Positions 5,208-50,467 of a DNA stretch of 64,000 bases are shown one piece after another. Each line of letters begins with the position of its first letter. Position 1 is the stretch's first letter. A program made the position numbers and the translations under genes. The notes below the pieces were generated by a model. It saw only the letters and a program-made list of their open reading frames with translations, was not told the DNA's origin and did not search any database. The stretch comes from Draconibacterium aestuarii (lineage in GTDB: Bacteria > Bacteroidota > Bacteroidia > Bacteroidales > Prolixibacteraceae). Location of the stretch: contig JAPOHD010000003.1 of assembly GCA_026671195.1 (NCBI GenBank), positions 1-64,000 on the forward strand, written 5' to 3'.

Positions 5208-5462
5208 ATGAATGTAGAACAATTAAAAAAAGTGATGAAATATCATCTGGCAAATTTCAACGACGAAGGAGTTGAAATCAACAACGACACCATCCACAAT
5301 ACAGTGCTGAGTGCCATCGATGGTTACGGGAATGCAAATTCCAAATATATCTATCGCGCAGTTATCCGATGGACACTGAAAAAGAACGGACACGAAGACA
5401 AGCCCTGGCCGTCTGATTGGTTTGATCAGAGTGTTGCCTATTTGGCACCCAAAATCATTTAA
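5208..5462 (+). CDS. hypothetical protein, 84 aa
   Basis: This is a small soluble acidic/charged protein with no signal peptide or membrane segment. It looks helical at the N-terminus (NVEQLKKVMKYHLANF) and tryptophan-rich near the end (KPWPSDWFDQ). I do not recognise a family. It begins a plus-strand run that continues with a 21-base gap into an exported protein and then the SIR2/CHAT/TIR genes, so co-transcription with them is possible but unproven. The ATG at 5208 overlaps the stop of a short upstream ORF. Confidence 0.55.
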   Translation: MNVEQLKKVMKYHLANFNDEGVEINNDTIHNTVLSAIDGYGNANSKYIYRAVIRWTLKKNGHEDKPWPSDWFDQSVAYLAPKII

Positions 5463-5483: not shown

Positions 5484-6341
5484 ATGAAAAAAATCCGATC
5501 ACTCTTTTTTATCTGTTTGCTGTCAGTAGCTCAGTTGTCGGTAGCTCAGGAAAAACCACTGCAACTTTCTCTGGGAACCATAAAAACCGTATTGAAGGAA
5601 AATGCGATTGATTTTGGGATTAAATACCTGCAGTCGTACGACAGTTTATTTCAGCAACAGGATATTCTATTTGCCGGTAAAAACAATTTATTTCAGTTTT
5701 CCCCGGAATTTAACGTTCAATCCGGGACCGGCGATGCATTTTCTTCCGTTAATCTGAAATTAACAGGCTTGCTCATGTTTTTTCAAACTACAGAAATTTC
5801 AGAAGTAATCACCCCCTGCACCAACTGTTACATGCACCTACTCCCAGTTAGTGCGGGAATAGAAACCAATAATACGTTTACAGTGGTAAACGGAATTTTT
5901 GAAGCGGGTTATGTTCCCTGGTATCAATCACCCATGATGACAAAGGTTCCCGACTGGTTGAAACATACAAAGGCAGGAATTTTCGTTCAGGCCGGATACA
6001 AATTCAGCCGCGACACAAGCATTGTAGAATCCCAAGGAGGTCAGGCAGATGAAAGCGCAGAAATGGAGGACGACGGCATTCTCCGTTTAAAAGGCAGTTT
6101 TACCATCGATACAAAATCGATATTTACAATTAGCGGAGTGGGTATCGGGATTTTTGGAAGTGCCAATGGTTGGTACGATCTGCTCAACAACGAAGTTTAT
6201 TACCGGCTAGAAGGAACCATGCGTTTTTTTCTGTCGGCGAGCCATGATAAATCTTTTAATCTGAATTACCAGAAAGGTTCCGGGGCCCCCAACTTTAACC
6301 AGGGAGACCAATTTGGTATGGGACTGACCCTAACGTTTTAA
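5484..6341 (+). CDS. exported protein of unknown function, likely outer-membrane or periplasmic
   Basis: The 285-residue product has a Sec signal peptide (MKKIRS, hydrophobic core, cleavage near VAQ at 20-22). The mature part is rich in alternating aromatic and polar residues, and the C-terminus GMGLTLTF ends in phenylalanine, as in outer-membrane beta-barrels. A CxxC pair (Cys112 and Cys115) might bind metal or form a disulfide. No known family is evident. It sits 54 bases before the SIR2 gene on the same strand. An envelope protein would be an odd member of a cytoplasmic defence cassette, so it may simply be the last gene of a separate unit. Confidence 0.6.
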   Translation: MKKIRSLFFICLLSVAQLSVAQEKPLQLSLGTIKTVLKENAIDFGIKYLQSYDSLFQQQDILFAGKNNLFQFSPEFNVQSGTGDAFSSVNLKLTGLLMFFQTTEISEVITPCTNCYMHLLPVSAGIETNNTFTVVNGIFEAGYVPWYQSPMMTKVPDWLKHTKAGIFVQAGYKFSRDTSIVESQGGQADESAEMEDDGILRLKGSFTIDTKSIFTISGVGIGIFGSANGWYDLLNNEVYYRLEGTMRFFLSASHDKSFNLNYQKGSGAPNFNQGDQFGMGLTLTF

Positions 6342-6395: not shown

Positions 6396-7544
6396 ATGAT
6401 GGAAGCATTAAATCTAGATCAATTAAAAGAGGTTTATAAAAAAAACTACCAGATCGTATTGTATACAGGCTCAGGCGTATCAACATGCCCCAATGAACCG
6501 AAATACGGTATACCAACCTGGATATCATTACTACAAAGAATTGGCGGTTTGCAGGAATCTTCAGATCAAAAAGAAGAAAATCCTTATAAACTGGTAAAAA
6601 TCGCTATTGATAATTGCGGAGGTCTTAAGGAATTTTTCGAAAGGCTACGCCAAATCATTGAAAAAGAGGAGAATTACACTCAAAAATATGGACTTTTAAG
6701 CAAAGCTTTCATCAATAAAGCAAAAACACTTAGTGCAGTTGCTGCCTTTTGTGGAAAACTGGATGGACAGATTGACCATTCACACCTAAAAGATCCACGT
6801 TTTGTTTATTTCCAAACAAAACCAAACCCCAGAATTCAGGCTATATTAACCTCAAACTATGATTGTTTTCTTGAATCGTGCGGTGCTAATTTATTCCGCA
6901 AAAGTCCCTTAAAACCAGTAACTGCAAAAGGATCACTCGCCGGACACCTTAACCGAATACCGGTTTTTCACATTCACGGATATATTCCACACCCTTTCTA
7001 CAAAAGGGAAAGAGAGCCTGAAATAAACGATTTAATCATTACAGAAGAAGATTACAGGAAATACTGGAATGAACAAGATGTTTTTGGAACGACCATGGGA
7101 CCACAAATTCACTATTTGAGGTACTACACCACTGTTTTTATAGGCTTTTCTTTTAACGATGAATTCGTATGTAAATTACTTAGAAAAATATACAAGGATT
7201 ATTTATCAAAAAGAAACAGAACTCATTTTGCTTTTATTGATGAAATATTATATGAGAAACAGGGAGATAATTTCTTCACAGAAATGGGAGTTACACCGGT
7301 TGTTTATAAAAACCATGATGATCTTACTGATTTATTAGGTGAAGTTTATAAAGCCGGGCTACAAAATGAATTACTTAGAACAAAAAATAGAAAAATTGAG
7401 CTGCCCCTACTTTTAACGAAAAAGCATATTTCATCTGGCAAGTCAGTTCGTTTTCCGCTAGAAATGATATGGGATATTTTAATAAACTGCAGACTTGAAT
7501 CCATCACCCGTTCCAAATTCGAAACTCTATTAACAATGTACTAA
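6396..7544 (+). CDS. SIR2-like domain protein, probable NADase effector
   Basis: This 382-residue protein matches the SIR2-like fold used by many bacterial defence NADases. It shows the nucleotide-binding YTGSGVS (23-29), LTSNYD (151-156, with Asn154 where catalytic Asn is expected), FHIHGY (His194) and the late motif FIGFSFND (248-255). It lacks the zinc-binding cysteines of true sirtuin deacetylases, so NAD hydrolysis is more likely than deacetylation. There is no signal peptide, so it should be cytoplasmic. It is the first gene of a tight plus-strand set, with a 35-base gap to the CHAT gene. TACTTTG at 6357-6363 could be the -7 element of a promoter for the set. The C-terminal 60 residues are unassigned and might contact partners. 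Seen: motifs. Known: SIR2 NADases in Thoeris-, DSR- and AVAST-type systems. Inferred: effector role here. Confidence 0.82.
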   Translation: MMEALNLDQLKEVYKKNYQIVLYTGSGVSTCPNEPKYGIPTWISLLQRIGGLQESSDQKEENPYKLVKIAIDNCGGLKEFFERLRQIIEKEENYTQKYGLLSKAFINKAKTLSAVAAFCGKLDGQIDHSHLKDPRFVYFQTKPNPRIQAILTSNYDCFLESCGANLFRKSPLKPVTAKGSLAGHLNRIPVFHIHGYIPHPFYKREREPEINDLIITEEDYRKYWNEQDVFGTTMGPQIHYLRYYTTVFIGFSFNDEFVCKLLRKIYKDYLSKRNRTHFAFIDEILYEKQGDNFFTEMGVTPVVYKNHDDLTDLLGEVYKAGLQNELLRTKNRKIELPLLLTKKHISSGKSVRFPLEMIWDILINCRLESITRSKFETLLTMY

Positions 7545-7579
7545 TTGAAAAGAAGTCTATATTACATAAAATCACAACT

Positions 7580-10500
7580 ATGAAAATCAATGAAATAAAC
7601 ATCCAGGGAATTGAACAAATTGTAAATTCGGAAGAACAACATCTCGACAGTTTACTAACAGTTACACGCACGTTTCAAATAAGCGGGAAAATGCGTGGAA
7701 AAACAGAAAGTCATCACATCGCTTTAAAAGAAAATGAATTAGTTGAATTCGTTTTCGACGATGGCACAACCTGGCTGGCAAGTCAGGAAACGCTGGCAGA
7801 CATTTTTCCTGAAGAAGCAATAAAGAAAAACCAACGCGATACTGAACATTTTCTGATTCCGGCTGAAATTACTATGCCTGTCGAAGAACGGGGCATTCTA
7901 AAAAAAGCACTGGTGAAACTGGTGAAAATTTTGGCAAAAAAGGCGATGCAGGTAAGCGTGAACAAACTAGCCGGCGAATTGGAAGACAAACAACTGGAAG
8001 GCAAAACCGGTTTATTCAGGCTTTCACACGATTTTAAACTGCTTGATTTTGACCCGGCCGGCGAAAGTAAAAAAACCTTCTGCCTGTTTATTCATGGTAC
8101 TGCATCCTCAGTTCAGGGCTCTTTCGGAGACATTGAAAGAAGCGAACTGAATATGTTTTTGAAAGAGAAGTATGGCGACAGAATATTAGGATTTCAACAC
8201 CGTACACTGACGGAGAATCCGCTCGAAAATGTAAAAACACTGGTTGAGCAATTACCTCAGCAATGTTCCCTGCATTTAATTAGTACGTCGCGTGGCGGTT
8301 TGGTTGGAGAAGTTTTGTCTAGATTCTGTAACAGTGCAAGTAACGACAAAGGTTTTACCAATGAAGAACTAAAATTTCTAAAAAAGGAATACCCCAAAAA
8401 TTATTTTGAAACCTTAGTTGCCAGCATAGAATCTATTCAACAAATTGTTTCTGCCAAACAAATAACAATCGAAAAGTTCGTTAGAATTGCGTGCCCGGCA
8501 GGAGGTACAACTCTGGCATCGGATCGTCTGGACAAGGTATTAAATGTCGCACTTAACCTCCTTGGATTGGGTATCGGCGCATCAGCCAACCCGGTTTTCA
8601 TCGCATTTAAGAACCTGATTGCAGCAGTAACCGATTCTAAAAATCAGGAAAATGTTTTACCCGGGCTTGAAGTTCAGCGACCTAAATCGCCATTTATCAC
8701 GGTATTAAACGGAATCGACGAAGAAGAAAATAAGATAGTGATTGATAACTCGCTGGCTGTTATTGCCGGAAACTCAAAAATAGGGTTTAAACTGAATGCA
8801 TTACTGATCATCGCCAGCAAACTGTTTTACAAACGAGAAAACGATTTGGTTGTTGATACGGTTTCGATGATGATGGGTACACCAAGAACCGGAATAATGC
8901 AGGAATATTTTTACGAAAGCAAGGATATTAATCACTTTAAATATTTTGAGAACCTACATACCAACAAGGCTATACAAGATATACTGAGTCAGGAATGGGG
9001 AGATTCGCTGCCCCGCTTTGAACCAATCAAAATTATTCCAGCAGAAACGCGTGATTACGACCTGACAAAAATCAATATTGAAAATCCGCTTCTGGAACTC
9101 ACCCGAAAAACTTCCTCAAAACAAATGATAAAAACACCGATAACAATTTCGGTTAGTGCAGGCAATTTGTCGTTTGCCCCATACCCGGTTTTGGCCGGCC
9201 ATTTTGAAGACGACAGCATTTTGTACGCCGAAAAACAAATCGACAAAAATCTAGACGGCTTGCTCACTCAATTTAACCAGGTTGGAAAATATCCAGGTAA
9301 AATAGAAGACAGCAGGGTGTTTCTAAGCCACAAAAAAGGATTTAAAGGAGCCATTATTGTTGGGCTCGGACGACCAGAAGATTTAACGGCCTCGGAACTG
9401 ACACAAACGATTGAAGCCGGAGTGATTGGTTATCTTTTCGACCTGCAAAAAAAGCAGAAAATAAAGGTTGATACAACATCGAATCAGGAAATAGGACTTT
9501 CCTCTGTTATTATCGGATGCGGTTATGGAGGTCTGTCAATCGACACATCTATAAAAGCCATTTTACAGGGCATTCGCAACGCCAATGCCGCAATGTGCCA
9601 ATTAAACGGAGGTGATTTTGTAGTTAAAAACCTTGAATTTGTGGAAGTGTTTGAAGACAAGGCAATGAATGCGCTGTTTGCCATAAATCGTTTTGCAAAG
9701 GAAGAACCAGACCTGTTTCAGATTAACAGCGGGAAAAACGGTTTTTTGTCTCGCCTGGGCTGTATGAAAAGAATTCCACAAGACGCAACCGAAGAATGGT
9801 GGAACCGGTTGACTGTTGTAAAAGAGGAAGATGTAAATAAAACTATTCAGAAGTTGAAATTTAGTGCATCAACTCAAAGTGCAAGAGTTGAACAACAACC
9901 CTTGTACACTACTCCTAATTTAATTGAAGGAATTATTGAAAACATTTCAACCAACAACAAGTGGGACGAAGAGCGTGCCAAGACGATCTTCGAGATGTTG
10001 ATTCCGAATGATTTTAAGGACGAATTAAAAAGACATGGGAACATAGTTTGGGTACTGGATTCTTACACAGCCACCTATCCGTGGGAACTAATTCAGGAAA
10101 GTTTGGAATCCGACCCCATTTGCGTGAGTTCAGGAATGGTACGTCAGCTAAAAACTCCTAACTACCGGAAAAATATTAAAATGGTGAATAGTAAAAGTGC
10201 TCTCGTTGTGGCAGATCCCAATCTCGAAGGATTTGTTGGTCAACTGCCCGGAGCACTTGAGGAAGGCAAACAAGTATCAAAATTGCTGATAAAAAACGGC
10301 ATGACGGTAACCGAAAGTTACAATGAAAATCATGCCGATATTATAAAAAAGTTCTTTGGACACGAATATAAAATTATCCACCTCTCCGGACACGGCATTT
10401 TTAACGAGGATCCCGACCTGGGGTCTGGCATGGTAATCGGTAACAACAAATTTCTATCTACCCGTGAGCTACAGCAAATGAGCACCGTTCCGGAATTTGT

Positions 10501-11821
10501 CTTTGTAAATTGTTGTCATTTGGGAAAATCAGATGGAGTTGCCGAAGAATTATATCAGAAACGTTTTAAACTGGCTGCCAACATTGGCACTCAACTCATA
10601 AACAACGGTGTACGATGCGTTATTGCCGCCGGCTGGGCGGTGAACGACGATGCAGCGCTACAGTTTGCCGAAGTTTTTTACAAACAAATGAACAACGGAG
10701 ACACCTTTGGAAGTGCCGTAAAAGAAGCCCGAAATGCCATTTATAATGACAATAAAAGCATCAACACCTGGGGTGCTTACCAGGCCTATGGCGATCCGTT
10801 TTATCGCTTTGAAGAACGGGAAATAGAAAAAGCAACAAAATCGTACCTAATTAGCAGGGAAGCAGAAATTGATCTCGAAAATTTATTAAGTGAAATCGAA
10901 ATCGGAAATGCCACCTCGGCAGAATACCTGAAACAACTGGATGTTATTTCCAATGCCGTTGACGACAAGATAAGAAACACCAAAATCACCGAACTGGAGG
11001 CATTTATCTGCACGGAAATCAGGGAATACTCCAGGGCTTGCATCAAGTTCAAAGATATCATCGATAAAAACGACGATTCAGTGTCTTTTACCAGCTTCGA
11101 AAAATATCAGAATGTCAGGGCCAAAAAGGTGATTGAAGATTACCGGGCCAAAACAGAATCAACTCAAAAACTTAGCGCGGAATTAGTAAAAGTGATTACG
11201 GAGCTGAAACTGCTGAAGCAAATTAGTCCGACAGCTGAAAGGATCAATATTTTAGGAAGTAGCTACAAACGCAAGGCTTTTATATCTGCCAAAAAGGAGT
11301 TAAAACAAACAGCCTACGAAAATGCAGCATTCTATTACCACGAAGCCTATTCCAATTACGAATCGTGGTATTCGTTAACCAACTGGCTTACTCTGGAAGC
11401 CATCCTGGTTTTGGCAGAAAAACGGAAATGGGCCGCCACCGTACAAGCCGATGAAGGAAACTACCAGCTTCCAAAATTCCAGGAAGCACACAAATTACTG
11501 GTAGAAATGGAGCATACCGTTCCGAAAGACACAGAAGAAATGAACTACTGGGATATGATTAAAGCCATAAACATCATGCTTTGCAGGTATATTTTAAATT
11601 TCTCGCGCTATAATTCGCAAAAATACCTGGATATTATTTTGGATAGCATTAGCGATTTATGGAAACTGGCCGGTTCAAAAGGAAAACGATTTGCTGAAAT
11701 TGAGCACCTTGAACTAGTCATCGACGGTTTATCAATCGAACAAAATGAGTTAACCAAATCGCTTCAGGAAAATTTCAAAAAAATGAAAAAAGAGCTGGAA
11801 GAATTAATTCAGAAAAGATAA
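7580..11821 (+). CDS. CHAT-domain (caspase-like) protein with N-terminal alpha/beta-hydrolase and M17-N-like domains
   Basis: This is a 1413-residue cytoplasmic protein. Residues about 165-460 form an alpha/beta-hydrolase of the lipase-like type seen in conflict proteins: LFIHGTAS (169-176), nucleophile elbow STSRGG with Ser237, a later acid in VVDTVS (Asp426) and His452. Residues about 520-700 resemble the N-terminal macro-like domain of M17 aminopeptidases (IIVGLGRPEDLTASEL). Residues about 820-1080 are a CHAT protease with the dyad His938 (HLSGHG) and Cys979 (VNCCHLG), plus INTWGAYQAYGDP. The last 330 residues are helical and TPR-like. The gaps of 35 and 24 bases to its neighbours indicate an operon. 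A protease that cuts a partner or a host protein on infection is the likely role, with the hydrolase as a second activity. Both active sites look complete. Seen: motifs. Inferred: function. Confidence 0.82.
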   Translation: MKINEINIQGIEQIVNSEEQHLDSLLTVTRTFQISGKMRGKTESHHIALKENELVEFVFDDGTTWLASQETLADIFPEEAIKKNQRDTEHFLIPAEITMPVEERGILKKALVKLVKILAKKAMQVSVNKLAGELEDKQLEGKTGLFRLSHDFKLLDFDPAGESKKTFCLFIHGTASSVQGSFGDIERSELNMFLKEKYGDRILGFQHRTLTENPLENVKTLVEQLPQQCSLHLISTSRGGLVGEVLSRFCNSASNDKGFTNEELKFLKKEYPKNYFETLVASIESIQQIVSAKQITIEKFVRIACPAGGTTLASDRLDKVLNVALNLLGLGIGASANPVFIAFKNLIAAVTDSKNQENVLPGLEVQRPKSPFITVLNGIDEEENKIVIDNSLAVIAGNSKIGFKLNALLIIASKLFYKRENDLVVDTVSMMMGTPRTGIMQEYFYESKDINHFKYFENLHTNKAIQDILSQEWGDSLPRFEPIKIIPAETRDYDLTKINIENPLLELTRKTSSKQMIKTPITISVSAGNLSFAPYPVLAGHFEDDSILYAEKQIDKNLDGLLTQFNQVGKYPGKIEDSRVFLSHKKGFKGAIIVGLGRPEDLTASELTQTIEAGVIGYLFDLQKKQKIKVDTTSNQEIGLSSVIIGCGYGGLSIDTSIKAILQGIRNANAAMCQLNGGDFVVKNLEFVEVFEDKAMNALFAINRFAKEEPDLFQINSGKNGFLSRLGCMKRIPQDATEEWWNRLTVVKEEDVNKTIQKLKFSASTQSARVEQQPLYTTPNLIEGIIENISTNNKWDEERAKTIFEMLIPNDFKDELKRHGNIVWVLDSYTATYPWELIQESLESDPICVSSGMVRQLKTPNYRKNIKMVNSKSALVVADPNLEGFVGQLPGALEEGKQVSKLLIKNGMTVTESYNENHADIIKKFFGHEYKIIHLSGHGIFNEDPDLGSGMVIGNNKFLSTRELQQMSTVPEFVFVNCCHLGKSDGVAEELYQKRFKLAANIGTQLINNGVRCVIAAGWAVNDDAALQFAEVFYKQMNNGDTFGSAVKEARNAIYNDNKSINTWGAYQAYGDPFYRFEEREIEKATKSYLISREAEIDLENLLSEIEIGNATSAEYLKQLDVISNAVDDKIRNTKITELEAFICTEIREYSRACIKFKDIIDKNDDSVSFTSFEKYQNVRAKKVIEDYRAKTESTQKLSAELVKVITELKLLKQISPTAERINILGSSYKRKAFISAKKELKQTAYENAAFYYHEAYSNYESWYSLTNWLTLEAILVLAEKRKWAATVQADEGNYQLPKFQEAHKLLVEMEHTVPKDTEEMNYWDMIKAINIMLCRYILNFSRYNSQKYLDIILDSISDLWKLAGSKGKRFAEIEHLELVIDGLSIEQNELTKSLQENFKKMKKELEELIQKR

Positions 11822-11845
11822 GTATAACCACAAAATTTTATACCA

Positions 11846-13264
11846 ATGGAAAAATATTTCGACATCCACAACCACCTTTTCAACAAGGATTTTCTTGCCA
11901 AAGAGTTACTCTACCGTTTGATGAAAGAGCTAAAAAAACTCATTCATCCGGAAAATGACGATGAACGCGAGCGCGGCATCAAAGACCGTTTTGTAAAGAT
12001 CAAAGAAGTAATTCAGGCATTGAAACGTTTCAGATATGCCCTAAAAGTTTTTAAAAAGAAGAATTCAACTGCCATTTACGAGGAGCTAAATAAAACTTAC
12101 AAAGGCGAATTTATTCTTACACCGCTAACCTTCGATCTGACCTTCTGTTTTACCTCATCGCCCAACCGCGACGAGAACAGCGATAACGATCCGTTGAAGG
12201 ATGTATTTGAGAAAGAGATGGAAAAAATGTTCGGGGAAATTGAAGACAGAACCCGCTCACTTTCACGTGATTTCAATTCAGATTCAACCAGCGAAGAAGA
12301 TCAACTTTGGAACAACTACTTAAAAGAAAAGGAAGAATTTTTAGCCGCTGCACAAGAGTTGAATGTTCAGCACGAAACCGACACCGGAAAAACAAGAGGT
12401 TTGTTCGGCAAACATTTACCCGGTAAATACGATGGTTTTGAGGAACAAATTAAACAACTGGAGGAACTAAAGAATCATCCCGAATATAAGGACATGGTAT
12501 TTCCATTTTTGGCGGTTGACCCACGCAGAGATGGGATTCTGGAGTATGCAAAAGCCAATGTTGGAAAAGGGAAACTGTTTATCGGCGTAAAATTATATTG
12601 CCCAAACGGTTATTCTCCAACCGATCCGCTCTTGTATGGCCCCGAAGGAGAAAGAGGAGGTATTTATGCCTTTTGCGAAGACAATGGCATCCCCATAACC
12701 ACCCACAATTCCGATGGTGGATTCGCAACCTTTTCTAAAAAAGTACTGATCGACGGAGATATTCATGTAAACGGCAATCTCGTCAGGATTAACAAGGAAA
12801 AAATAGCTTTTAAAACTTCCATCTTAGGGAAAGATGCGGTTTACGAAAGAGCGGTTACTTTAAATCATCCTTTATTATGGCGAAAAGTAATTGAGAAGTA
12901 CCCCAACCTGATTCTGAACCTGGCTCATTTTGGAGGTGGACAACAGCTGGAGGGTGCCATCGATCATCGCGATAAACAAGAGCTTTGGGCGAATCAAATT
13001 ATCGCTCTCGTGAAAGACCCACGGTACAAAGTCCATACTGATCTATCGTGTTTCTCAGAACCCGACATTCTGAAAAAATTTGTAGCAAGCCCGGTTTATC
13101 AGGAAATTAAACACAGGGTTCTTTATGGTTCTGATTTTATTCTGCTACTGCTTTTCGAAAATGATTTTACCGATAATGTGACACAATTCAAAAAAATATT
13201 TGGCAGCGACTTTGATGTGATTGCCCGCGATAACCCGAAAGAATTTTTGAAACATGTGCTTTGA
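11846..13264 (+). CDS. amidohydrolase-family metal-dependent hydrolase (TIM barrel)
   Basis: The 472-residue protein opens with DIHNH (His8, His10), the metal-binding HxH of the amidohydrolase superfamily. It continues with IGVKLY (Lys249), ITTHNSDGG (His287), NLAHFGGG (His361) and LYGSDF (Asp430), so the metal ligands run in the usual order of the Amidohydro_2 type. Residues about 100-215 are a long charged helical insertion (NDPLKDVFEKEMEKMFG, EEDQLWNNYLKEKEEF) that is not part of the usual core. There is no signal peptide. It is 24 bases after the CHAT gene and 92 before the TIR-NACHT gene. The substrate cannot be read from sequence. In this context a nucleotide-like signal, a modified base or a CHAT product are all guesses, and decarboxylase-type members of the superfamily are also possible. 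Confidence 0.75.
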   Translation: MEKYFDIHNHLFNKDFLAKELLYRLMKELKKLIHPENDDERERGIKDRFVKIKEVIQALKRFRYALKVFKKKNSTAIYEELNKTYKGEFILTPLTFDLTFCFTSSPNRDENSDNDPLKDVFEKEMEKMFGEIEDRTRSLSRDFNSDSTSEEDQLWNNYLKEKEEFLAAAQELNVQHETDTGKTRGLFGKHLPGKYDGFEEQIKQLEELKNHPEYKDMVFPFLAVDPRRDGILEYAKANVGKGKLFIGVKLYCPNGYSPTDPLLYGPEGERGGIYAFCEDNGIPITTHNSDGGFATFSKKVLIDGDIHVNGNLVRINKEKIAFKTSILGKDAVYERAVTLNHPLLWRKVIEKYPNLILNLAHFGGGQQLEGAIDHRDKQELWANQIIALVKDPRYKVHTDLSCFSEPDILKKFVASPVYQEIKHRVLYGSDFILLLLFENDFTDNVTQFKKIFGSDFDVIARDNPKEFLKHVL

Positions 13265-13356
13265 GAAAATTCATGAAGAACCTTGAGCTTGAATTAATAA
13301 AGTTGTTACCGCAATTTTTCACCATTATTAATTGATATAACTTAAATTCAGTTGTT

Positions 13357-16293
13357 GTGGAGAATACAGTAAATTTTCAGAAAAGTCCAGATAAAAGTCT
13401 GCCCCCCAAAAGCCTACGGATCTTTTTAAGTTACGGACACGACGAATACATCGGCATAGCCAAACGCATTAGAGATGATCTCAAAAAAAGAGGACACGAG
13501 GTATGGTTCGATGAAGAAAAGTTATTGGAAGGAAGATACTGGGAACAGGACATTGAAAAAGGGATTAGCTGGGCAGGTGAAATTAAAAATAAAGGGCGGG
13601 TGGTACTGATAATGACCCCACACTCGGTGAGGAGACCTAACGGTTTCTGTCTGAATGAAATTGCACGCGCTCTCGACAGAGAGATAAATATTATTCCTGT
13701 TATGGCCGTGATGGTAGAACCCCCGTTAAGCATTTGCCGGATTCAGTGGTTAGACCTTACTGACAGTATTCCAATTTCGAACAGGGAAGGCAGGTACGAA
13801 CAAAAATTCCAACGTCTGCTTGATGCTCTTGAAAACGACGCAATAAATTTTGAGGGAGTACACAATTCATTAAAAACTATATTAAAACCAATCTCTTATG
13901 AGGCGGATCTCAATCATCATCTGCCGCGCTTTACCGGAAGAGATTGGCTATTTAAACAGGTCGAAAATTGGATGGATAATGAAAAAGGGGGACGAGTTTT
14001 CTGGATCACAGGCGATCCGGGAGTTGGAAAAACGGCCATCGCATCGAAGCTTTCCTTCAAATATCGCCAGATAATGGCTTTTCATGTCTGCAGGTTGCAA
14101 GATGATGATAAAATTGATCCAAGGCGTACAATTCTTTCAATTGCTTATCAACTGGCAACGCAAATACCTGAACTTCTTGATAAAGTAAATGAAATAGTGG
14201 ATCTCGAAACGGTATGTGAATCAAGCAATCTGGATAAGATTTTTGAACGTCTTCTGGTAGAGCCGTGTACAAAAAAAATAACTCCTCCATTAAAACCGGT
14301 TGTTATTCTTATCGATGCCCTTGACGAAGCAACAAAAGATGGAAAAAATGCGTTGGTCGACTTTCTTGCCGACGAAATGGATAGGCTACCAAAATGGTTC
14401 AGGTTTATACTTACGAGCCGGGAAGAAGAGGAAGTGATGAATCCTTTACAAAAGTATAAACCTGTACATATTTCTAAAAACAGCGAACACAATATAAAAG
14501 ATATAAAACAATTTCTGAGAAAAGAATTCGCTTCTTTCGAAAAGGATGCTACAAAACTGGATACCATAGTGGAATTATTGTTAAAGCAAAGTGAAGGAAT
14601 CTTTCTCTACCTCGAGGAGATTAGAAGAGAAATAGAAGAAGAAAGAGTGGATTTATCCGATTTGGATCAATTTCCCCGGGGCCTTGGAGCATTGTACAGT
14701 AAATATTTCAGAAGAAAATTCCCGGACACACAACGTTACCTGGATGTACACTTTAAGGCATTTTCATTGATATGTGCTGCCTACAGACCGATACCCGTTG
14801 ATTTAATGATGGAAATATTTGGTTGGGACGAAAAAGGAAAAGAGATCATTATTGAAGAGTGGGGTGCGTATTTCCAGATTCGAGACAACCGCATCAGGCC
14901 ATTCCACCGATCGTTGATAGATTGGCTTATTGATAGTAAAAAAGCAGGATCGAAATACTTTGTTGATCCGAATTACGGACACCGGTTAATTGCAACAATT
15001 GGCTGGGATGAGTTTCAAAAAGATCCGAATAGTATGCTTGATTATTTAAAAGTACACCTGCCCGAACACCTTAAGAAAACCGGTAACACTGAAAAGTTAG
15101 AGCTATGTGTAACAAATTGTTTGTTCATCTTAAATTTCCAAAAACAAGAAAACCTGTTTAATCTTTCAAAATACTGGAAAGACATCCAAAAAGAGAAGCG
15201 AATTGAACTTTGCAGGGCATCGTGGAAAGCAAGTAAACAAAAAGCCCCTGACAACCTAAATAATATTGCAGAATACCTGGGAAAACTATTCCAGAATCAT
15301 GGGGATTATGAAACGGCCTTATTTTATTTTGGAGAAGAACAGAAATACGCGAAAAAAATTAGGGACGAATGTGAAATTGCAGAATCAAAATACAACATTG
15401 CATGGTGTTCCAGGCATACAGACCAGTTCGACTTTGCTATTAAAATGGCCGGCAAGGCACAAAACAGTTACCTCAAACACGATAATAAACCCGGATATGC
15501 AAAATGTTTTGCAGTTATTGGTATTTGCTATTGGCATAAATTTGAAGATGTGCTGGCCATTGAAACTCTGGAACAGGCGCTGGTGCAATACAAAGACATT
15601 AAGGATTTTAGAAATGAGGCTTTAATATTAAATCATCTGGGAATAGTTTATCGAAGTTTGGGGAGATATAACGAAGCGCTGAAACATTATAAAAGAACAC
15701 AAGATATTTATCACCGTTTGAATGATTTTAAAGGTTTGGGAAAAGTTCTAAACAGCATAGGTACTTGTAATTGGTGGGCCGGACGAATAAAAAATGCCAT
15801 CGAAAATTATGCAGAAGCAAATAAAATTAACACCGAGCTTGACAATCAATATGTTTTAGGGCTGACTGCGAATAATATGGGATATATCCACCTTGAAAAC
15901 GGTGATTTTGATAACGCAAAAAAAGAGTTCATAAAAGCTAAAGAAATTAGAGATAAGATAGGTAGCGAAAGTTTTGGTCTAATGGATTTATCAGGATTAG
16001 CCAGAGCACATTATGAATCAGGAAATAAAACGGAGGCAAAAAATCTTTCCCAAGTGGTTTTGAAAGGGCTGAAAAAGCATAAAAAAGTTGAAGATGTAAG
16101 AAGAGCCTATTACAACCATTATGTTATAATGAAAAATGGTAGCGCAAAGGAGCAAAAATCTGCAAAAATGGCTCTAATAAAGGCAAAGGGACTTATTATG
16201 TCGAGGATGAAACGAATGGGAAGTGATGAGATGAGGGAAACTTTCATAAATAATGTTCCGTTAGTTAAAGAGATTCTTGCAATAAATCTGTAA
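13357..16293 (+). CDS. TIR-NACHT-TPR protein (STAND/NLR-like)
   Basis: This is a 978-residue protein. Residues 19-160 are a TIR domain: RIFLSYGHDE, a long helix to WFDEEKLL, and FCLNEI, where Glu101 corresponds to the catalytic Glu of NAD-cleaving TIRs. Residues about 190-420 are a NACHT-type ATPase with Walker A GDPGVGKT (219-226), Walker B VVILIDALDEA (315-325) and a sensor TSRE (353-356). Residues about 640-900 are TPR repeats (for example AEYLGKLFQNHGDYETALFY, LNSIGTCNWWAGRIKNAIEN). The order TIR-NTPase-repeat matches animal NLRs and bacterial STAND defence proteins, so the repeats should sense a trigger and the TIR should cleave NAD or make a signal. The start is GTG at 13357; there is no internal Met before the TIR and no clear ribosome site. 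A bidirectional terminator follows at 16507. Confidence 0.85.
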   Translation: MENTVNFQKSPDKSLPPKSLRIFLSYGHDEYIGIAKRIRDDLKKRGHEVWFDEEKLLEGRYWEQDIEKGISWAGEIKNKGRVVLIMTPHSVRRPNGFCLNEIARALDREINIIPVMAVMVEPPLSICRIQWLDLTDSIPISNREGRYEQKFQRLLDALENDAINFEGVHNSLKTILKPISYEADLNHHLPRFTGRDWLFKQVENWMDNEKGGRVFWITGDPGVGKTAIASKLSFKYRQIMAFHVCRLQDDDKIDPRRTILSIAYQLATQIPELLDKVNEIVDLETVCESSNLDKIFERLLVEPCTKKITPPLKPVVILIDALDEATKDGKNALVDFLADEMDRLPKWFRFILTSREEEEVMNPLQKYKPVHISKNSEHNIKDIKQFLRKEFASFEKDATKLDTIVELLLKQSEGIFLYLEEIRREIEEERVDLSDLDQFPRGLGALYSKYFRRKFPDTQRYLDVHFKAFSLICAAYRPIPVDLMMEIFGWDEKGKEIIIEEWGAYFQIRDNRIRPFHRSLIDWLIDSKKAGSKYFVDPNYGHRLIATIGWDEFQKDPNSMLDYLKVHLPEHLKKTGNTEKLELCVTNCLFILNFQKQENLFNLSKYWKDIQKEKRIELCRASWKASKQKAPDNLNNIAEYLGKLFQNHGDYETALFYFGEEQKYAKKIRDECEIAESKYNIAWCSRHTDQFDFAIKMAGKAQNSYLKHDNKPGYAKCFAVIGICYWHKFEDVLAIETLEQALVQYKDIKDFRNEALILNHLGIVYRSLGRYNEALKHYKRTQDIYHRLNDFKGLGKVLNSIGTCNWWAGRIKNAIENYAEANKINTELDNQYVLGLTANNMGYIHLENGDFDNAKKEFIKAKEIRDKIGSESFGLMDLSGLARAHYESGNKTEAKNLSQVVLKGLKKHKKVEDVRRAYYNHYVIMKNGSAKEQKSAKMALIKAKGLIMSRMKRMGSDEMRETFINNVPLVKEILAINL

Positions 16294-16589
16294 TGTGTTT
16301 TATAAAGAATGAAACTCCTCGCAGCAAGCTGACGAGGTATCTCAATGGAATCCTTAATTTTTTCAATGCGCATCAAAATGCGAGGAATATTACCCAGGAG
16401 ATCCCTCTTCGTCAGCTAACAGATCGGAGTCTCCGTCTGACCGTACGGGCAGGAGTTCGACAAAATAGTTTTGTTTCTCAAAACTTAAGTCTCACTGATT
16501 TAAGAACAAAAAAGGTTAGCAAAATTACTAACCTTTTTCGTGTGGTTCCCCAATTGCAAGAAGTTGCAACGTACTCTTTTAAATGTAAT
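16294..16589. other. intergenic region with REP-like hairpins, 296 b
   Basis: It lies between convergent genes. It holds a stem CCTCG...CGAGG at 16317-16337, a second small hairpin TGCGCAT-caaa-ATGCG near 16365-16381, a GATCCC-type degenerate palindrome near 16400-16450, and then the terminator at 16507-16538 and a tRNA-Asn-tail relic. No gene is supported here; an open frame of 186 codons that crosses it continues antisense into the DUF1080 gene. Confidence 0.5.
16507..16570. terminator. bidirectional terminator fused to tRNA-Asn-tail repeat, copy B
   Basis: AAAAAGGTTAG-CAAAATTA-CTAACCTTTTT (16507-16538) is flanked by A and T runs, so it can end transcripts of both convergent genes. It is directly followed by TGTGGTTCCCC and AAGAAGTTGCAAC, the signature of the tRNA-Asn-tail repeat family. 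Confidence 0.75.
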
Positions 16590-17576
16590 TTAGTTGACCG
16601 ATGGAGTAACAACAAATTTGCGGAATTCCACCGGCCCGTGATCTCCCTGAATCATAAATGGTCCGGGTTCTCCTTCTTTGCTGTCGAGCGATCCACCTGT
16701 AATTCCCGGGATAGGACGATTGGAAATCACTTCTGTTCCATTGAGTACAACAGTAACGTGGCGACCAACCAATGTTACTTCGTAAGTCTGCCATTCTCCT
16801 GGTTTTTTAGCTGCATTAACCGCTGGTGCGATAAAACCGTAAATACCACCTAAACTTACGAGATCAGTTCTTCCTTTTGAATCTTCAATTTGAAGTTCAT
16901 GACGGCCACGAAGGTAAATTCCACTGTTACTTCCTTCAGGATACCTGAATTCTACACTGAGTTTGAAATCGTTAAATTTTTGGTTGGAGATTAGATTACC
17001 ACCCGATTCGGTGTTAACCATTACACCATCTATCATTTGAAATTTGCAGTTCTCCGGAATTATCCATCTGTCCATGTTTTCGGTAATCAGATTTACGGGA
17101 TTACCCCAAATGGGCGGATTTTTTCTTTCCAGCGACGGAGCCCGAACACCTGTCCATTCCAATTTATTACCATTGAGCATTTGATAACCCGAAAGCTTAT
17201 CGTCTTTTAAAGTAAATTCAAAATAAAGATCATCAATATCCATCCATTGAGGAGGAATTGTGAAATTATATTTATCCTCACTGGCAGAATAGTGTATTTC
17301 TGCAATTGGTCTTGCACTACCTTCGTATCCAACGTAGTATCCAACAAGAGTGGAAAAGCCCGATAATTTTACCTGAAGCCATCCAGGGAAGCCATCTGAA
17401 GCCATTAATCCGTGTCGGAAAAGCCCAAGATTCTCTATCTGTTTATCAGTCATATTTATGGTAAGATCCCACTTGCCAATTAATGGCGAGTCACTTTCAA
17501 CGCGCTGTGCCTGCGCAGGAACGAAACTAATTAAAGTAAAAACAATTAATAAAAGGAACGCTTTTAGTTTTTTCAT
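16590..17576 (-). CDS. exported DUF1080 (3-keto-disaccharide hydrolase-type) protein
   Basis: The 328-residue product starts with a Sec signal peptide (MKKLKAF, cleavage near AQA at 22-24). The first half (about 30-145) is a beta domain seen in front of some DUF1080 proteins. The second half (about 165-328) is the concanavalin-like DUF1080 domain: FKLSVEFRYPEGSNSGIYLRG in pieces, HELQIED, PGEWQTYEVTL and the final HGPVEFRKF. Characterised members hydrolyse 3-keto-glycosides. It acts in the periplasm or on the surface and stands alone, whereas its distant relative at 30713 is within a sugar operon. The start gives a normal signal peptide. Confidence 0.78.
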   Translation of the reverse strand: MKKLKAFLLLIVFTLISFVPAQAQRVESDSPLIGKWDLTINMTDKQIENLGLFRHGLMASDGFPGWLQVKLSGFSTLVGYYVGYEGSARPIAEIHYSASEDKYNFTIPPQWMDIDDLYFEFTLKDDKLSGYQMLNGNKLEWTGVRAPSLERKNPPIWGNPVNLITENMDRWIIPENCKFQMIDGVMVNTESGGNLISNQKFNDFKLSVEFRYPEGSNSGIYLRGRHELQIEDSKGRTDLVSLGGIYGFIAPAVNAAKKPGEWQTYEVTLVGRHVTVVLNGTEVISNRPIPGITGGSLDSKEGEPGPFMIQGDHGPVEFRKFVVTPSVN

Positions 17577-45416: not shown

Positions 45417-45441
45417 ATCCCGCTTTATGCGGGATTTTTTT
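45417..45441. terminator. bidirectional terminator
   Basis: ATCCCGC-TTTAT-GCGGGAT is followed by eight T. It ends the cold-shock transcript, and its last base is the first base of the glycosyltransferase stop codon on the other strand, so read-through into either gene is blocked. Confidence 0.9.
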
Positions 45442-47687
45442 TACACTAATTTTAAATCCGATCGGTGCAATTCTTCATACGCCTGCAAAACCGTCAAATG
45501 CGAGATTAAGTAGGCAAGCGAACTTTCAGCCCCCTGATTCCGGTTTACTCCATAACTTTCGAATCCATCGCAACAACCGTTGGTTTCAAAATCGTACAAG
45601 CTCATTCGCAAATCATTCTCGCCAAGGAACCACAGGAACGAAGTGTATAGCTTATTCAGATAATCTTTGTCTTTTGTGACCGAGTATGCCTGATGATACA
45701 TTAGTACCATTGCCATAGCATCAATGGGTTGCTGGGCAAAAACGGAACGTTCACCTTCTTTTTTAAACCACTTTTCATTACCTATAATCGAAAGGTAATT
45801 ATCCTTTAACGTGTGGCGGGTTAGAAAATTCATTGATTCAATGGCTATTTCCGTTATTTTATCATCATTTAGTATTTCTGCTGAATGTAAAAGTGCCAGA
45901 GGTAAAATTCCATTGTCATAAGCCAGCAAAGTTTCAAACCAATTCCAATCATCCGCCTGGTTTTCTTTATAATGTTTAATTAAAACATTGGCGAGATTCC
46001 TCAATCTTTCCGTCATTGAATCATCAGAAGGATTACTTTTCAGGTAATAACTTATTCCGATCATTGTATTGGCAATTCCCCGAATTGATTTTAATTTTTC
46101 AAAATTAGGAGCAGCGTTAAAAAACACCAATCTGCCGGTTTGGTAATAAGCATCGTTTGGTGCATTTGCCAGTAAATAACCTAATGCCCAAATGGTTCTT
46201 CCAAACGAATCTTCAGAGCCCACTTCATCCAAAAAATTTCGGTTAAAACTCAGGAAATTTCTAAAAGTCCCGTCAGCGTTTTGCAAATAATGAATGTAAC
46301 TTAAATAGATAGGCGATAATTCAAGTGCGCGCATATCTTTCTTTTGGCGGTAAGCCATTAAAACCATTAGTAAAGCTCGCGAATTATCATCTAAACAATA
46401 TCCTTCCTTTAAATTAGGTATTCCAAATTTTGCATGTTGAATGATGCCTGTATCGTCTGTTAAACGATTAATATGAGCAAGGGAAAAGGGGGGAAGAATG
46501 AGTAAATCAGGTTCCGGTTCTTTTCGTTTAAGAATCGGCTGCTCATCCTTCATTATTTTTTTGGCAAGTGCCATGTATTTTTCACCGGTTTTTCGCCAGG
46601 TAATTTTTTTGCCATATTCACCGGCATTTTGCTTCAGTTGCTTCAGTTCTTCAGGGTTGTCAAAGAGTTCAACGAGCGTCTCGGCCAGCTCTTCTGTATC
46701 ATTAAAATTGAACAACCTACCTCTTCCCTGTGCCAGCAATTCAGCGGCATGCCAATATGGAGTTGATAGCACTGCGGCTCCCACTCCCACGGCATACGAA
46801 AGGGTTCCGCTTGTAATTTGGGCTTCGTTCAAATAAGGTGTGATGTATATATCGCAGGCATACAAATATTTGAATAAATCCTGTTCATCAATAAATTCGT
46901 TAAGAAATATTACATGATTTTCAAGTTGAAGATTTTTCACCAGGCACAACAGAAATATACGGTATTCCTCGCCTGAATGACGCAGCACATTTGGATGCGT
47001 TTTCCCCAAAACGATATAAATAAGCTCCGGATATTTTTTAACCACTTCAGGCAAAGCTTTAATTACTGTTTCAATGCCTTTGCTTCGGCCAATAAAGCCA
47101 AAGGTTAAGAGTACTTTTTTGCTTTCGAGTTTAAACTCCTTTTTCGATATTTCGGGACTGAAACGAATATCAGGGACTCCATGTTCAATTAGTACAATTT
47201 TTTCTTTTGGCACATCGTAAATATCTACCAAAAAGCCAACTGCTTTATGGCTCATTACCACAATTTTATGCGCCATTTTACATATCTCTTTCAAAACTGC
47301 CTTTTCATTATAAGAAGGTGTTTTAAGTATGGTATGAAGTGTAACAATTAGTGGAATCTCCAACCGATGAAGTAAGGGAAGAATATAAACACCGCTCTGT
47401 CCGCCAAATATGCCAAATTCGTGCTGCAGGATGCAGACGTCGGCGCCACTAAAATTAATATATTTTACAGCTTTTAAATAATCTTCCTGATGATCTTGCC
47501 GAATCGTTAATTTAACCTCTTCGGGGTATTTATAGGTGAGATCGTTGTCGTTTAATGCAACCACATAACCTTCATGTTTTTGTTCTTCCGGAGCATTGCA
47601 AGTTAACATCGATTTGAACAAATTGTGGGTAAAAGTACCAATTCCACATTCTCGGGGAGGGTATGTAGCGATATAAGATATCTTCAT
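45441..47687 (-). CDS. GT4 glycosyltransferase with C-terminal (alpha/alpha)-barrel domain
   Basis: The 748-residue protein has a GT-B/GT4 domain (about 1-385): PRECGIGTFTHNL near the N-terminus, ILQHEFGIFGG, IEHGVPDIRF, LTFGFIGRSKGIETVIKALP and the donor-binding SYAVGVGAAVLSTPYWHAAE. Residues about 400-748 are helical, with a toroid-like pattern (DDNSRALLMVLMAYRQKK, DSFGRTIWALGYLLAN, DNGILPLALLHSAEIL), similar to the unknown C-terminal part of some mannosyltransferases. Probable donor is a GDP- or UDP-sugar, with mannose favoured by the GH130 gene nearby. The gene overlaps the small gene at 47684 by 4 bases. Confidence 0.88.
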   Translation of the reverse strand: MKISYIATYPPRECGIGTFTHNLFKSMLTCNAPEEQKHEGYVVALNDNDLTYKYPEEVKLTIRQDHQEDYLKAVKYINFSGADVCILQHEFGIFGGQSGVYILPLLHRLEIPLIVTLHTILKTPSYNEKAVLKEICKMAHKIVVMSHKAVGFLVDIYDVPKEKIVLIEHGVPDIRFSPEISKKEFKLESKKVLLTFGFIGRSKGIETVIKALPEVVKKYPELIYIVLGKTHPNVLRHSGEEYRIFLLCLVKNLQLENHVIFLNEFIDEQDLFKYLYACDIYITPYLNEAQITSGTLSYAVGVGAAVLSTPYWHAAELLAQGRGRLFNFNDTEELAETLVELFDNPEELKQLKQNAGEYGKKITWRKTGEKYMALAKKIMKDEQPILKRKEPEPDLLILPPFSLAHINRLTDDTGIIQHAKFGIPNLKEGYCLDDNSRALLMVLMAYRQKKDMRALELSPIYLSYIHYLQNADGTFRNFLSFNRNFLDEVGSEDSFGRTIWALGYLLANAPNDAYYQTGRLVFFNAAPNFEKLKSIRGIANTMIGISYYLKSNPSDDSMTERLRNLANVLIKHYKENQADDWNWFETLLAYDNGILPLALLHSAEILNDDKITEIAIESMNFLTRHTLKDNYLSIIGNEKWFKKEGERSVFAQQPIDAMAMVLMYHQAYSVTKDKDYLNKLYTSFLWFLGENDLRMSLYDFETNGCCDGFESYGVNRNQGAESSLAYLISHLTVLQAYEELHRSDLKLV

Positions 47688-47923
47688 TTATTTATGATTA
47701 CGTTCAAGGATGTTAATAAGCCGATATTTTGTATTTCAAGAGGAAGAAGTTCCCGTTCAAAATAAACCAAATCTTTATGTCCGGGGTTTTCTTGTATTTT
47801 GCAATAATATATTCGGTCGACATACCTCCTCACAATCAAATTTTGATTTGGATTATCTTTCGCCCGCATAATATCTCCTTCTTTAAATTTGTTTTCCATA
47901 ATTTCCAATGAACTTGTTTCCAA
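47684..47923 (-). CDS. small conserved protein co-transcribed with GT4
   Basis: The 79-residue protein has KFKEGDIMRAKDNPNQNLIV, RRYVDRIYYCKIQE and KDLVYFERELLPLE, an SH3-like beta pattern seen in Bacteroidota hypothetical proteins (from memory). The stop overlaps the GT4 start as ATGA-type coupling. The Met at codon 9 is an alternative start. Function unknown; it may assist the glycosyltransferase. Confidence 0.6.
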   Translation of the reverse strand: METSSLEIMENKFKEGDIMRAKDNPNQNLIVRRYVDRIYYCKIQENPGHKDLVYFERELLPLEIQNIGLLTSLNVIINK

Positions 47924-47971
47924 ACCACGTTTTAAAAGCTTTCCTATTAGAAATTCTTTCTAAATCAGAGA

Positions 47972-48097
47972 TTAAATAATACTAGAATCACTTTTCCCTG
48001 CTTTTTTTGCTGCTTTTGCCGCCCTTTTTTCTTTCAGGTTCATAACAGCTTCCTTTTTCTCGCTTTTTCTCGCTTTCCCTTCTTTGCTTTTTGCCAT
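47972..48097 (-). CDS. small highly basic protein, 41 aa
   Basis: The 41 codons start MAKSKEGKARKSEKKEA and contain NLKEKRAAKAAKKAGK. It resembles the 48-residue protein at 19393. The high Lys content suggests nucleic-acid binding. It lies between the GT4 pair and a cupin gene and is too short for a standard search, but the frame is clean and has an ATG. Confidence 0.5.
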   Translation of the reverse strand: MAKSKEGKARKSEKKEAVMNLKEKRAAKAAKKAGKSDSSII

Positions 48098-48121
48098 GTC
48101 TTTTATTTTATGATATTAATA

Positions 48122-48562
48122 CTATAATATAGTTCCTTCATACCCACTTTTAATCACTGTTGAAATCATTTTAAACCTACCGTTTGCCCGAACAATATTT
48201 GAGGTATGTGCCGGAATTATTATGCCTTGTCCAATTTGAAGAACATTTGGTTGATCATCGATAACAACTTCGGCTGTTCCTTCAATAATTTGAATAAAAG
48301 TGTCAAACGGAGAGATTTTTTCTGCCAGTGCTTCGCCGGTGTCGACGGCCACAATGCTAATATTCCCTGTCGATTTTCTGATGACTGTTTTGCTAACTAC
48401 TGAACTGGGAACATACTCAATGATTTCAATCAGGATGTGAACTTTTGATTTTTCAATTTCTTTCATTTGTAGTTGGTATCCAAATAAGACAACCTTGTCA
48501 AAGGTACCCCTGCTCAATTTTGAAAGTGTTACACGATTGATGTTTTTATTTACATCATTCAC
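48122..48562 (-). CDS. cupin-domain protein
   Basis: The 146-residue frame holds a single cupin: EYVPSSVVSKTVIRKSTG, EKISPFDTFIQIIEGTAEVV, IGQGIIIPAHTSNIVRA. The metal His set is incomplete (H in PAHTS is present, and the usual HxH is replaced by SPFDT). The first 32 residues before MKEIEK are basic and unlike the family, so the Met at codon 33 is a possible start. Such stand-alone cupins are linked to redox or stress control in this phylum. Confidence 0.75.
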   Translation of the reverse strand: MNDVNKNINRVTLSKLSRGTFDKVVLFGYQLQMKEIEKSKVHILIEIIEYVPSSVVSKTVIRKSTGNISIVAVDTGEALAEKISPFDTFIQIIEGTAEVVIDDQPNVLQIGQGIIIPAHTSNIVRANGRFKMISTVIKSGYEGTIL

Positions 48563-48766
48563 ACATTTGCAAAATACCTTATATCCTGCAATTCAAAATA
48601 TTCGAAGATGAAAAGATGTTTGTCACAATCGCTCAAGAGCGCCAAAAATGAGCTGGAAATCAGCTTTCTATTCATATCGTTCAGCTATGGACCAAGAGAA
48701 AAATTATGAATTATCAGTGATTGGAGGTATCGGAAAGAGGACAAGAACAATACTTTAGGGTAATTC

Positions 48767-49225
48767 TTATTTCAAATGTTTAACAAAAAAGGGGATATAG
48801 AAATCAAAGGTAGATTCATTAACGCTCCTTTCGTTCAACTCATCAATAAACTCCTGGTAAAACTTGTTAAAGCGTTCCAAATCATCATAAATTAATAAAA
48901 ACAGTAATTTTTGGGTATTATGAAAATTGAATTCTCCAACACTGGTGTAAATTACAACCATTTCAAAATCATCAACTTTATCATGCTTATGCAGGTAAAA
49001 ACTAATGAATTTATTTTTGTTTCTAACTGGCGTTACAACAAAACGATATTTCCTGGATATATGATCCCATTCAAAATAAATTATATACTCCGTGATTGGG
49101 AAATGGGGCTCAATAAATTTTTTAAAGATTTCCTGCAGATAATATTTCTCACTGTTATTCATTAGCACTCCTTTAAATTGTACATCCCTTTGCTGCCAAA
49201 TTCCTCTATATTTTGCATTATTCAC
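48767..49225 (-). CDS. hypothetical protein, 152 aa, coupled to AraC-type regulator
   Basis: The 152-residue soluble protein is rich in aromatic and charged residues (HFPITEYIIYFEWDHISRKY, FVVTPVRNKNKFISFYLHKH). No known family is evident. Its start overlaps the stop of the CxxC-AraC gene by 4 bases (49222-49225), so it follows that gene in one transcript. It might be a partner or target of the regulator. Confidence 0.5.
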   Translation of the reverse strand: MNNAKYRGIWQQRDVQFKGVLMNNSEKYYLQEIFKKFIEPHFPITEYIIYFEWDHISRKYRFVVTPVRNKNKFISFYLHKHDKVDDFEMVVIYTSVGEFNFHNTQKLLFLLIYDDLERFNKFYQEFIDELNERSVNESTFDFYIPFFVKHLK

Positions 49226-49782
49226 ACATCTTCAAGTGTTTCGCGACGTTTATTCTTGAGATTTTTGAAGTGAGTTGGAGTAAGTCCGGTAAATTTTTTA
49301 AACTGATTTGAAAGATGAGCAACACTACTGTAGTGCATTTTGTAAGCAATCTCAGTAAGATTAAGTTCATTATAAACGATCAGTTCTTTCACCCGTTCGA
49401 TTTTGTGGGTCAGGTAAAATTTTTCAATGGTGATACCTTTCACTTCTGAAAAGAGATTGGCAAGATAGGTATAATCATAATTGAGTTTTTCGCTCAGGTA
49501 ATCTGAAAGATTCACCTTAATTTGATCTTCGGCATAATGAACCAATTCGATGATAGCACTTTTAATTTTTTCGACAAGTACACTCTTTTTATTGTCCATC
49601 AACAGCAATCCTGCCTTTTTTAAACCTATTTTTAATTGTTCTAACTGTTCTGTACGAACATCACCTATAATATCAGCTTCGCCAATTTTCACATAAACAT
49701 AAGGAAGACCGACTTTTTCAAGTTCGGCTTTCACCACCATCTGGCAGCGAATGCAAACCATATTTTTAATGTATATCTTCAA
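49222..49782 (-). CDS. AraC-type regulator with N-terminal CxxC metal-like domain
   Basis: The 186-residue protein combines a short N-terminal domain MKIYIKNMVCIRCQMVVKAE (Cys10, Cys13), like the heavy-metal-associated beta-alpha-beta fold, with a C-terminal AraC HTH (about 95-180: DYTYLANLFSEVKGITIEKF, LTEIAYKMHYSSVAHLSNQF). The first domain has only the first half of an HMA fold by eye (strand, CxxC, helix, strand YVKIGEADIIG). Metal or redox sensing is the natural inference. It leads a two-gene unit with the 152-residue protein. Confidence 0.85.
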   Translation of the reverse strand: MKIYIKNMVCIRCQMVVKAELEKVGLPYVYVKIGEADIIGDVRTEQLEQLKIGLKKAGLLLMDNKKSVLVEKIKSAIIELVHYAEDQIKVNLSDYLSEKLNYDYTYLANLFSEVKGITIEKFYLTHKIERVKELIVYNELNLTEIAYKMHYSSVAHLSNQFKKFTGLTPTHFKNLKNKRRETLEDV

Positions 49783-50385: not shown

Positions 50386-50467
50386 TAATTTATCGTCAAA
50401 TTGGATTAATCTTTTTAAATTTTTCAATTAAAAAATAAGTAACTTGTAGTAGCAAAAATTCAAACAG

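Follow-up and report, generated by a model that had tools for sequence, protein, structure and literature searches.

In a 64,000-nucleotide stretch of the Draconibacterium aestuarii genome (Bacteroidota, Prolixibacteraceae; contig JAPOHD010000003.1, positions 1 to 64,000), hereafter the window, a run of same-strand genes encodes a SIR2 protein, a multidomain CHAT protein, an amidohydrolase and a TIR-STAND protein. The repeated core of this run is a pair of genes: that of the CHAT protein, which joins a hydrolase, an M17_N-like stretch, a CHAT domain and a TPR-S domain, and that of the amidohydrolase. The SIR2 and TIR genes beside the pair look like local additions, so that the locus combines familiar immune components in a new way and is no fixed four-gene system. 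We tentatively read it, from its domains, as a modular suicide locus of the abortive-infection type, Thoeris-like or NLR-like.

The CHAT and amidohydrolase genes form a repeated core

The CHAT gene (7580..11821, +; 1413 amino acids, aa) is followed by the amidohydrolase gene (11846..13264, +; 472 aa) in all three Prolixibacteraceae loci that could be read, i.e., the window and genomes G427 and G420, with gaps of 24, 23 and 41 bases, respectively. Relative to the window, the proteins of G427 are 61% (CHAT) and 71% (amidohydrolase) identical and those of G420 51% and about 58%. In a fourth genome, G410, the contig stops inside the CHAT gene and the amidohydrolase has no match in the genome. The four CHAT proteins group in a single clade (SH-like support 100), and so do the three linked amidohydrolases together with an unlinked copy from G431 (support 100/99). 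The surroundings of the pair differ: it lies between clpP/clpX-like genes and the gene of a pyridoxal-phosphate (PLP)-type enzyme in G427 and beside an rsmI-like gene in G420 (all named by eye), and the clpPX stretch of the window genome lacks it. ClpP and ClpX of the window genome share 89-90% identity with those of G427, and the right-flank protein shares 94%, against 61% and 71% for the pair. Since the pair is this much more divergent than its flanks and sits at different sites, the pairing has outlasted movement, exchange or fast change.

Outside these genomes, the association is absent from our sample. We compared 90 CHAT loci; in 85 of them the sequence runs on for 1 kb or more past the CHAT gene, and in 76 there is 1 kb on both sides. 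The relatives in genome contigs were the best 80 of 422, all from Bacteroidota. An amidohydrolase-family profile run over the 90 loci matched in the window, G427 and G420 only, the last two being the sole cases of adjacency among the best 80 named-genome loci. Elsewhere in the phylum, 17 of 394 other genomes hold amidohydrolase relatives at E up to 1e-10, and the stretches in which these lie show no CHAT match. Searches with the amidohydrolase gave no match in plasmids and, as a profile, none in solved structures; neither it nor the CHAT protein matched viral contigs. The literature surveyed, at the level of titles and abstract openings and with subscription journals mostly out of reach, does not describe a CHAT-amidohydrolase system.

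The amidohydrolase itself scores 38.6 bits with Amidohydro_2 (cutoff 26.4) and carries the motifs HNH-8, THNS-286, NLAHFGG-358 and GSDF-428; the metal or catalytic residues H8, H10, H287, H361 and D430 are invariant in 10 sequences. More distant relatives (35-48% identical, in frames mostly of 520-550 aa) are present in 25 of the 36 other genomes of the genus. None was found (E up to 1e-10) in the four genomes that carry the CHAT gene (the window genome, G427, G420 and G410), which shared ancestry may explain.

The amidohydrolase could instead be a brake or antidote, removing an NAD (nicotinamide adenine dinucleotide)-derived signal or something that the CHAT protein produces, such that leakage would not be lethal; enzymes that degrade signals of immunity are known. 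The pairing in three of three readable Prolixibacteraceae loci is as compatible with an antidote as with an effector. We nevertheless give this idea little credence, because the amidohydrolase is missing at the other 87 CHAT loci (one of which, L115, is truncated where its contig stops) and because the copy of G431 lies in a 19.9 kb stretch that has no CHAT gene.

The four genes are not a fixed unit

The preliminary description of the window had treated the four genes as one system. What stands of this is the association of the amidohydrolase with the CHAT gene in the nearest relatives; the four genes together are not conserved. G427 has the pair and, within 19.9 kb, neither a SIR2 nor a TIR-STAND gene. 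In G420 the pair is followed by a TPR protein gene. The four-gene comparison set out beforehand, in which rare adjacency was to count against a unit, found the four genes adjacent in none of the best 80 CHAT loci. Together with the absence of SIR2 relatives (below), the pair-only relatives rule out a fixed four-gene system. This calls for caution in naming defence systems from one genome, as a four-gene row here consists of a repeated pair plus local additions.

The SIR2 gene (6396..7544, +; 382 aa) had no match in the 139 other genomes of the family (E up to 1e-15) or in 389 others of the phylum (E up to 1e-10), and apparently is itself a local addition. A plasmid search returned one weak match, in Leuconostoc, and solved structures none; in locus L116, some 7 kb from the CHAT gene, there is a weak match of SIR2 type (E 4e-4). 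The TIR-STAND gene (13357..16293, +; 978 aa, GTG start) has relatives in one of the 139 other family genomes, G446, with two proteins of 36-40% identity, both in stretches without a CHAT match. Neither SIR2 nor a close TIR-STAND relative was found near CHAT in the best 80 of 422 loci, and among the genomes examined only that of the window has both genes flanking the pair.

These distributions also suit a different reading, in which the pair by itself makes up a system and SIR2 and TIR-STAND are immune genes in their own right that came to lie next to it. They were never seen with the pair elsewhere, the SIR2 (in the 139 family and 389 phylum genomes) and a 285 aa open reading frame (ORF) upstream of it (in 36 genomes of the genus) are matchless, and both G446 relatives of TIR-STAND lie away from any CHAT match. 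Against it, the run keeps one strand throughout with gaps of 21-92 bases, a strong hairpin lies past the last gene (between the genes, the analysis covered a consensus scan that performs at chance level), and TIR genes recur beside the CHAT family in other genomes. We regard this reading as possible, if doubtful.

An unusual CHAT protein and its likely history

The four same-strand genes and their gaps of 35, 24 and 92 bases were confirmed by the ORFs, and the expected catalytic motifs were located in all four proteins, as first described; we take them to be active sites from knowledge of the families. The domain calls held for SIR2_2, CHAT, Amidohydro_2, TIR and TPR and failed for NACHT, which falls 0.1 bit short (26.6 bits, cutoff 26.7) on a protein best matched by NPHP3_N. 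Newly added are the M17_N-like stretch and the C-terminal TPR-S of the CHAT protein, and the extension of the run upstream.

In the 1413 aa protein, Pfam models match for CHAT (104.5 bits, cutoff 24), DUF7379 (97.3, cutoff 33) and TPR-S (37.1, cutoff 27.6), and marginally for Peptidase_M17_N (23.8, cutoff 23.4). The DUF7379-type alpha/beta hydrolase is best matched at residues 169-254, with a second stretch beyond, followed by the M17_N-like part (542-614), CHAT (798-1072) and TPR-S (1174-1272), which lies C-terminal to the protease domain. The hydrolase motifs are HGTAS-172 and SRGG-237. The His-Cys dyad of CHAT is present (SGHG-936, NCCH-977), its two columns are invariant in 48 aligned proteins, and by family assignment the protein is classed as caspase-like.

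Most relatives carry a further domain. In 66 of the 68 complete CHAT proteins, a second, LCAT-like hydrolase separates the first one from the M17_N-like part (the other 22 of the 90, some of which, including L024, start past the region, were left out of the count). The two proteins without it are those of the window and G427, both linked to an amidohydrolase. When the CHAT profile was run against solved structures, LCAT/PLA2G15 chains matched, only in this second hydrolase that the window protein lacks. The distribution of LCAT and the CHAT tree make one order of events the simplest: the amidohydrolase would have been gained in the Prolixibacteraceae clade, the LCAT-like domain then lost on the branch of the window and G427, and SIR2 and TIR-STAND gained in the window only.

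The 978 aa protein matches TIR_2 (66.5 bits, cutoff 28), NPHP3_N (88.8, cutoff 24.8) and TPR repeats. As expected of a STAND sensor, a P-loop/Walker B ATPase lies between the TIR effector and the repeats (TIR motif CLNEI-98, P-loop GDPGVGKT-219, ILIDALDEA-317). With the NACHT score just under its cutoff, NACHT-type STAND is the safer label. The SIR2 protein matches SIR2_2 alone in Pfam (61.4 bits, cutoff 24.5), with no SLOG domain, and has the NADase-type motifs GSGVS-25, TSNYD-152 and HIHG-192.

Neighbours of the CHAT family

The preliminary description placed the parts among types known from bacterial immunity, which holds, and TIR and STAND genes do recur beside the CHAT protein. TIR genes account for 13 of 318 ORFs at most two ORFs from CHAT and for 7 of 812 farther off (odds ratio 4.9, p = 6e-4; window and L024 excluded), although the p value is rough, because the window and three CHAT neighbours served as seeds for the TIR profile, which was then extended on the very loci being compared, and because these loci cannot count as independent. 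By locus, a TIR lies within two ORFs in 10 of 88. A Pfam count on 70 neighbours (68 of the 116 that satisfied our rule on gap length, plus two TIR genes of L024 outside it) gave TIR_2 in eight, of which six are within the rule by our own profile, and nSTAND1 in four. Among 70 controls, from 620 eligible, TIR is absent from the 25 families listed and thus occurs at most once, while Peptidase_M19 and AAA_31 occur once each, so finding either of these two beside CHAT means little.

Neighbours scanned individually were chosen for size and closeness rather than at random, and lie 4 to about 400 bases away. Those of immune type comprise TIR-nSTAND1-LRR, TIR, nSTAND1, DUF4062, SLOG-SLATT, FRG and caspase proteins; DUF4062 proteins are described as TIR-like NADases in PMC13174449. 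Those of hydrolase type comprise an M19 dipeptidase with a CN-hydrolase, an M15 carboxypeptidase, CHAP with PG_binding, and Amidase_2. Genes active on peptidoglycan (CHAP, M15, Amidase_2, PG_binding) adjoin CHAT in L099, L111, L131, L142, L146 and L065, those of L131 and L146 being assigned from a similar start and place. The dipeptidase and CN-hydrolase follow the CHAT gene of Flavisolibacter nicotianae (L152, 15640-18270); M19-type dipeptidases likewise belong to the amidohydrolase superfamily. Three Chitinophaga genomes (L104, L126, L139) share a gene of about 1340 aa at 11-49 bases past the CHAT gene, and its L126 copy matches SNF2 helicase models.

CHAT proteins also occur on plasmids, with matches in 30 records; among the 20 matches listed, eight span 63-76% of the query, from Azotobacter, Ensifer, Paracoccus and Rhizobium. 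An R. leguminosarum plasmid copy, whose match is confined to residues 502-1411, has a TIR gene on either side at about 1 and 1.7 kb, one of them TIR-nSTAND1-WD40.

Some of these neighbourhoods would also suit a pair with no immune role, engaged in protein processing or metabolism, for instance a protease and a hydrolase for turnover of peptides or of the cell envelope. Many CHAT relatives lack a close same-strand neighbour, some neighbours are peptidoglycan hydrolases, the M19 dipeptidase or the CN-hydrolase, the PLP-type enzyme follows the pair of G427, and the distant amidohydrolases common in the genus had no CHAT gene beside them in any of the seven genomes, out of the 25, whose surroundings we examined. 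We consider such a role unlikely given the patchy presence of CHAT, which at E up to 1e-10 matches in only 4 of 101 relatives (counting the window genome itself), all four within the genus, its occurrence on plasmids and the enrichment of TIR genes nearby.

A candidate suicide locus

In the modular suicide locus that we tentatively favour, the TIR-STAND protein would detect the invader through its TPR region, oligomerise with ATP and cut NAD. The NAD-derived product, or the loss of NAD, would then be read by the TPR-S domain of the CHAT protein, perhaps together with the M17_N-like part, and the reading would free the caspase-like protease and the lipase-like hydrolase to damage the cell. The amidohydrolase would be the paired downstream enzyme of the protease, perhaps turned on through cleavage, and SIR2 would deplete NAD further. 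A chain from TIR-STAND through NAD to TPR-S/CHAT is the simplest model, because the run in the window unites TIR, SIR2 and TPR-S/CHAT.

Two precedents bear on this model. According to PMC12847820, the NAD-derived signals made by Thoeris TIR proteins drive effectors encoded in the same operon, which are of SIR2, TM-macro or caspase-like type. PMC12799240 reports an immune protease that activates a paired proenzyme, which for the amidohydrolase is an analogy rather than evidence.

Several observations weigh against this reading. In as many as 44 of the 90 CHAT loci, no gene on the same strand comes within 150 bases of CHAT, and 35 of these loci have at least 1 kb on both sides; 78 of 88 loci have no TIR within two ORFs. 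Many neighbours are non-immune or matchless (SNF2 helicases, a ParA-like protein, periplasmic binding proteins, a response regulator, DUF5995). G427 keeps the pair and over 19.9 kb shows no sensor gene; the same-strand gene 40 bases past the pair (by eye, a PLP-dependent lyase) looks metabolic. The G431 amidohydrolase (57% identical) stands without a CHAT gene over 19.9 kb. Finally, the sensing of NAD-derived signals by TPR-S is reportedly a prediction made by Burroughs and Aravind in 2020.

A bolder version of the model seems distinctly unlikely to us. It is a relay akin to apoptosis in which NAD signals from TIR and SIR2 gate the TPR-S/CHAT protease-lipase, which in turn would switch on a dedicated amidohydrolase executioner. 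Within this relay, and with the same low probability, the executioner would be exchangeable, being the internal LCAT-like domain in most bacteria, the amidohydrolase in Prolixibacteraceae and peptidoglycan hydrolases elsewhere.

If the pair works as proposed, amidohydrolases join the executioner enzymes of immunity (to our knowledge, this would be the first amidohydrolase immune effector), and the pair offers a tractable two-gene core with which to probe whether TPR-S reads NAD-derived signals.

Comparison with known systems

The CHAT protein belongs to a known class of CHAT/TPR-S effectors; what is new is the partner enzyme and the locally assembled NAD arm. As in other TPR-S effector systems, the TPR-S scores above the Pfam cutoff and is fused to an effector, and NAD-handling genes lie nearby in some loci; the pairing with an Amidohydro_2 gene may set the window apart. 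With Thoeris (types I, II and IV) it shares a TIR gene in one run with a SIR2 gene and a caspase-like protease. It differs in that its SIR2 shows no SLOG domain and its TIR forms one protein with a STAND ATPase and TPR repeats; relative to type IV, in which N7-cADPR activates the protease, CHAT replaces the caspase-like protein and the amidohydrolase is extra. Membership of type I was rejected, since ThsA joins SIR2 to SLOG/STALD and the better ThsA models cover mainly the SIR2 part. The Thoeris TIR models were weak on the window TIR (ThsB 18.5 bits; type III ThcB4 22.4 against a cutoff of 220). The defence sirtuins DSR1 and DSR2 were rejected likewise (Dsr2 15.2 and Dsr1 12 bits, cutoff 1400), and matches to PADLOC and NCBIfam models were weak throughout.

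The 978 aa protein resembles the bacterial NACHT/Avs STAND sensors (PMC10907252) in its P-loop, Walker B, N-terminal effector and C-terminal repeats. Its best model is NPHP3_N, however, and the window has a separate protease-amidohydrolase pair upstream. The combination of an immune protease with a separately encoded hydrolytic enzyme recalls the Hachiman/AVAST nuclease-protease pairs (PMC12799240), with CHAT in place of the trypsin-like protease or caspase and the amidohydrolase in place of the metallo-beta-lactamase (MBL) nuclease. A further likeness is the TPR-CHAT protein of Craspase (type III-E CRISPR). It too combines CHAT with TPR-type repeats, in a different domain order.

Flanking features

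The same-strand run opens upstream of SIR2 with two ORFs whose membership is unsure, one of 84 aa (5208..5462, +) and one of 285 aa (5484..6341, +) with a signal-peptide-like start (by eye). The gaps are 21 bases between them and 54 to the SIR2 gene. Neither product has a Pfam match, and a search of 36 other genomes within the genus returned nothing for that of 285 aa. About 215 bases past the last stop, a hairpin followed by a T run (16509-16538, +) is a possible intrinsic terminator; the consensus promoter and terminator scan did not pick it up. An ORF at 16293-16853 was judged spurious because it is antisense to a real gene and without a Pfam match.

The gene that follows the pair in G420 (L050, 3575-6568), where the window has TIR-STAND-TPR, encodes a TPR protein of 997 aa whose C-terminus matches DUF2971 weakly, below the cutoff.

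Comparing the 20 kb stretches of five relatives with positions 1-24000 of the window (E up to 1e-10) gave no clean empty site, the only shared DNA being the 3-keto-disaccharide hydrolase gene on the right side. This gene and others of 748, 186 and 370 aa, clustered in G427 (L193), seem scattered across about 45 kb of the window (16590-17576 and 45441-63300; by eye), which suggests rearrangement or insertions between the genes.

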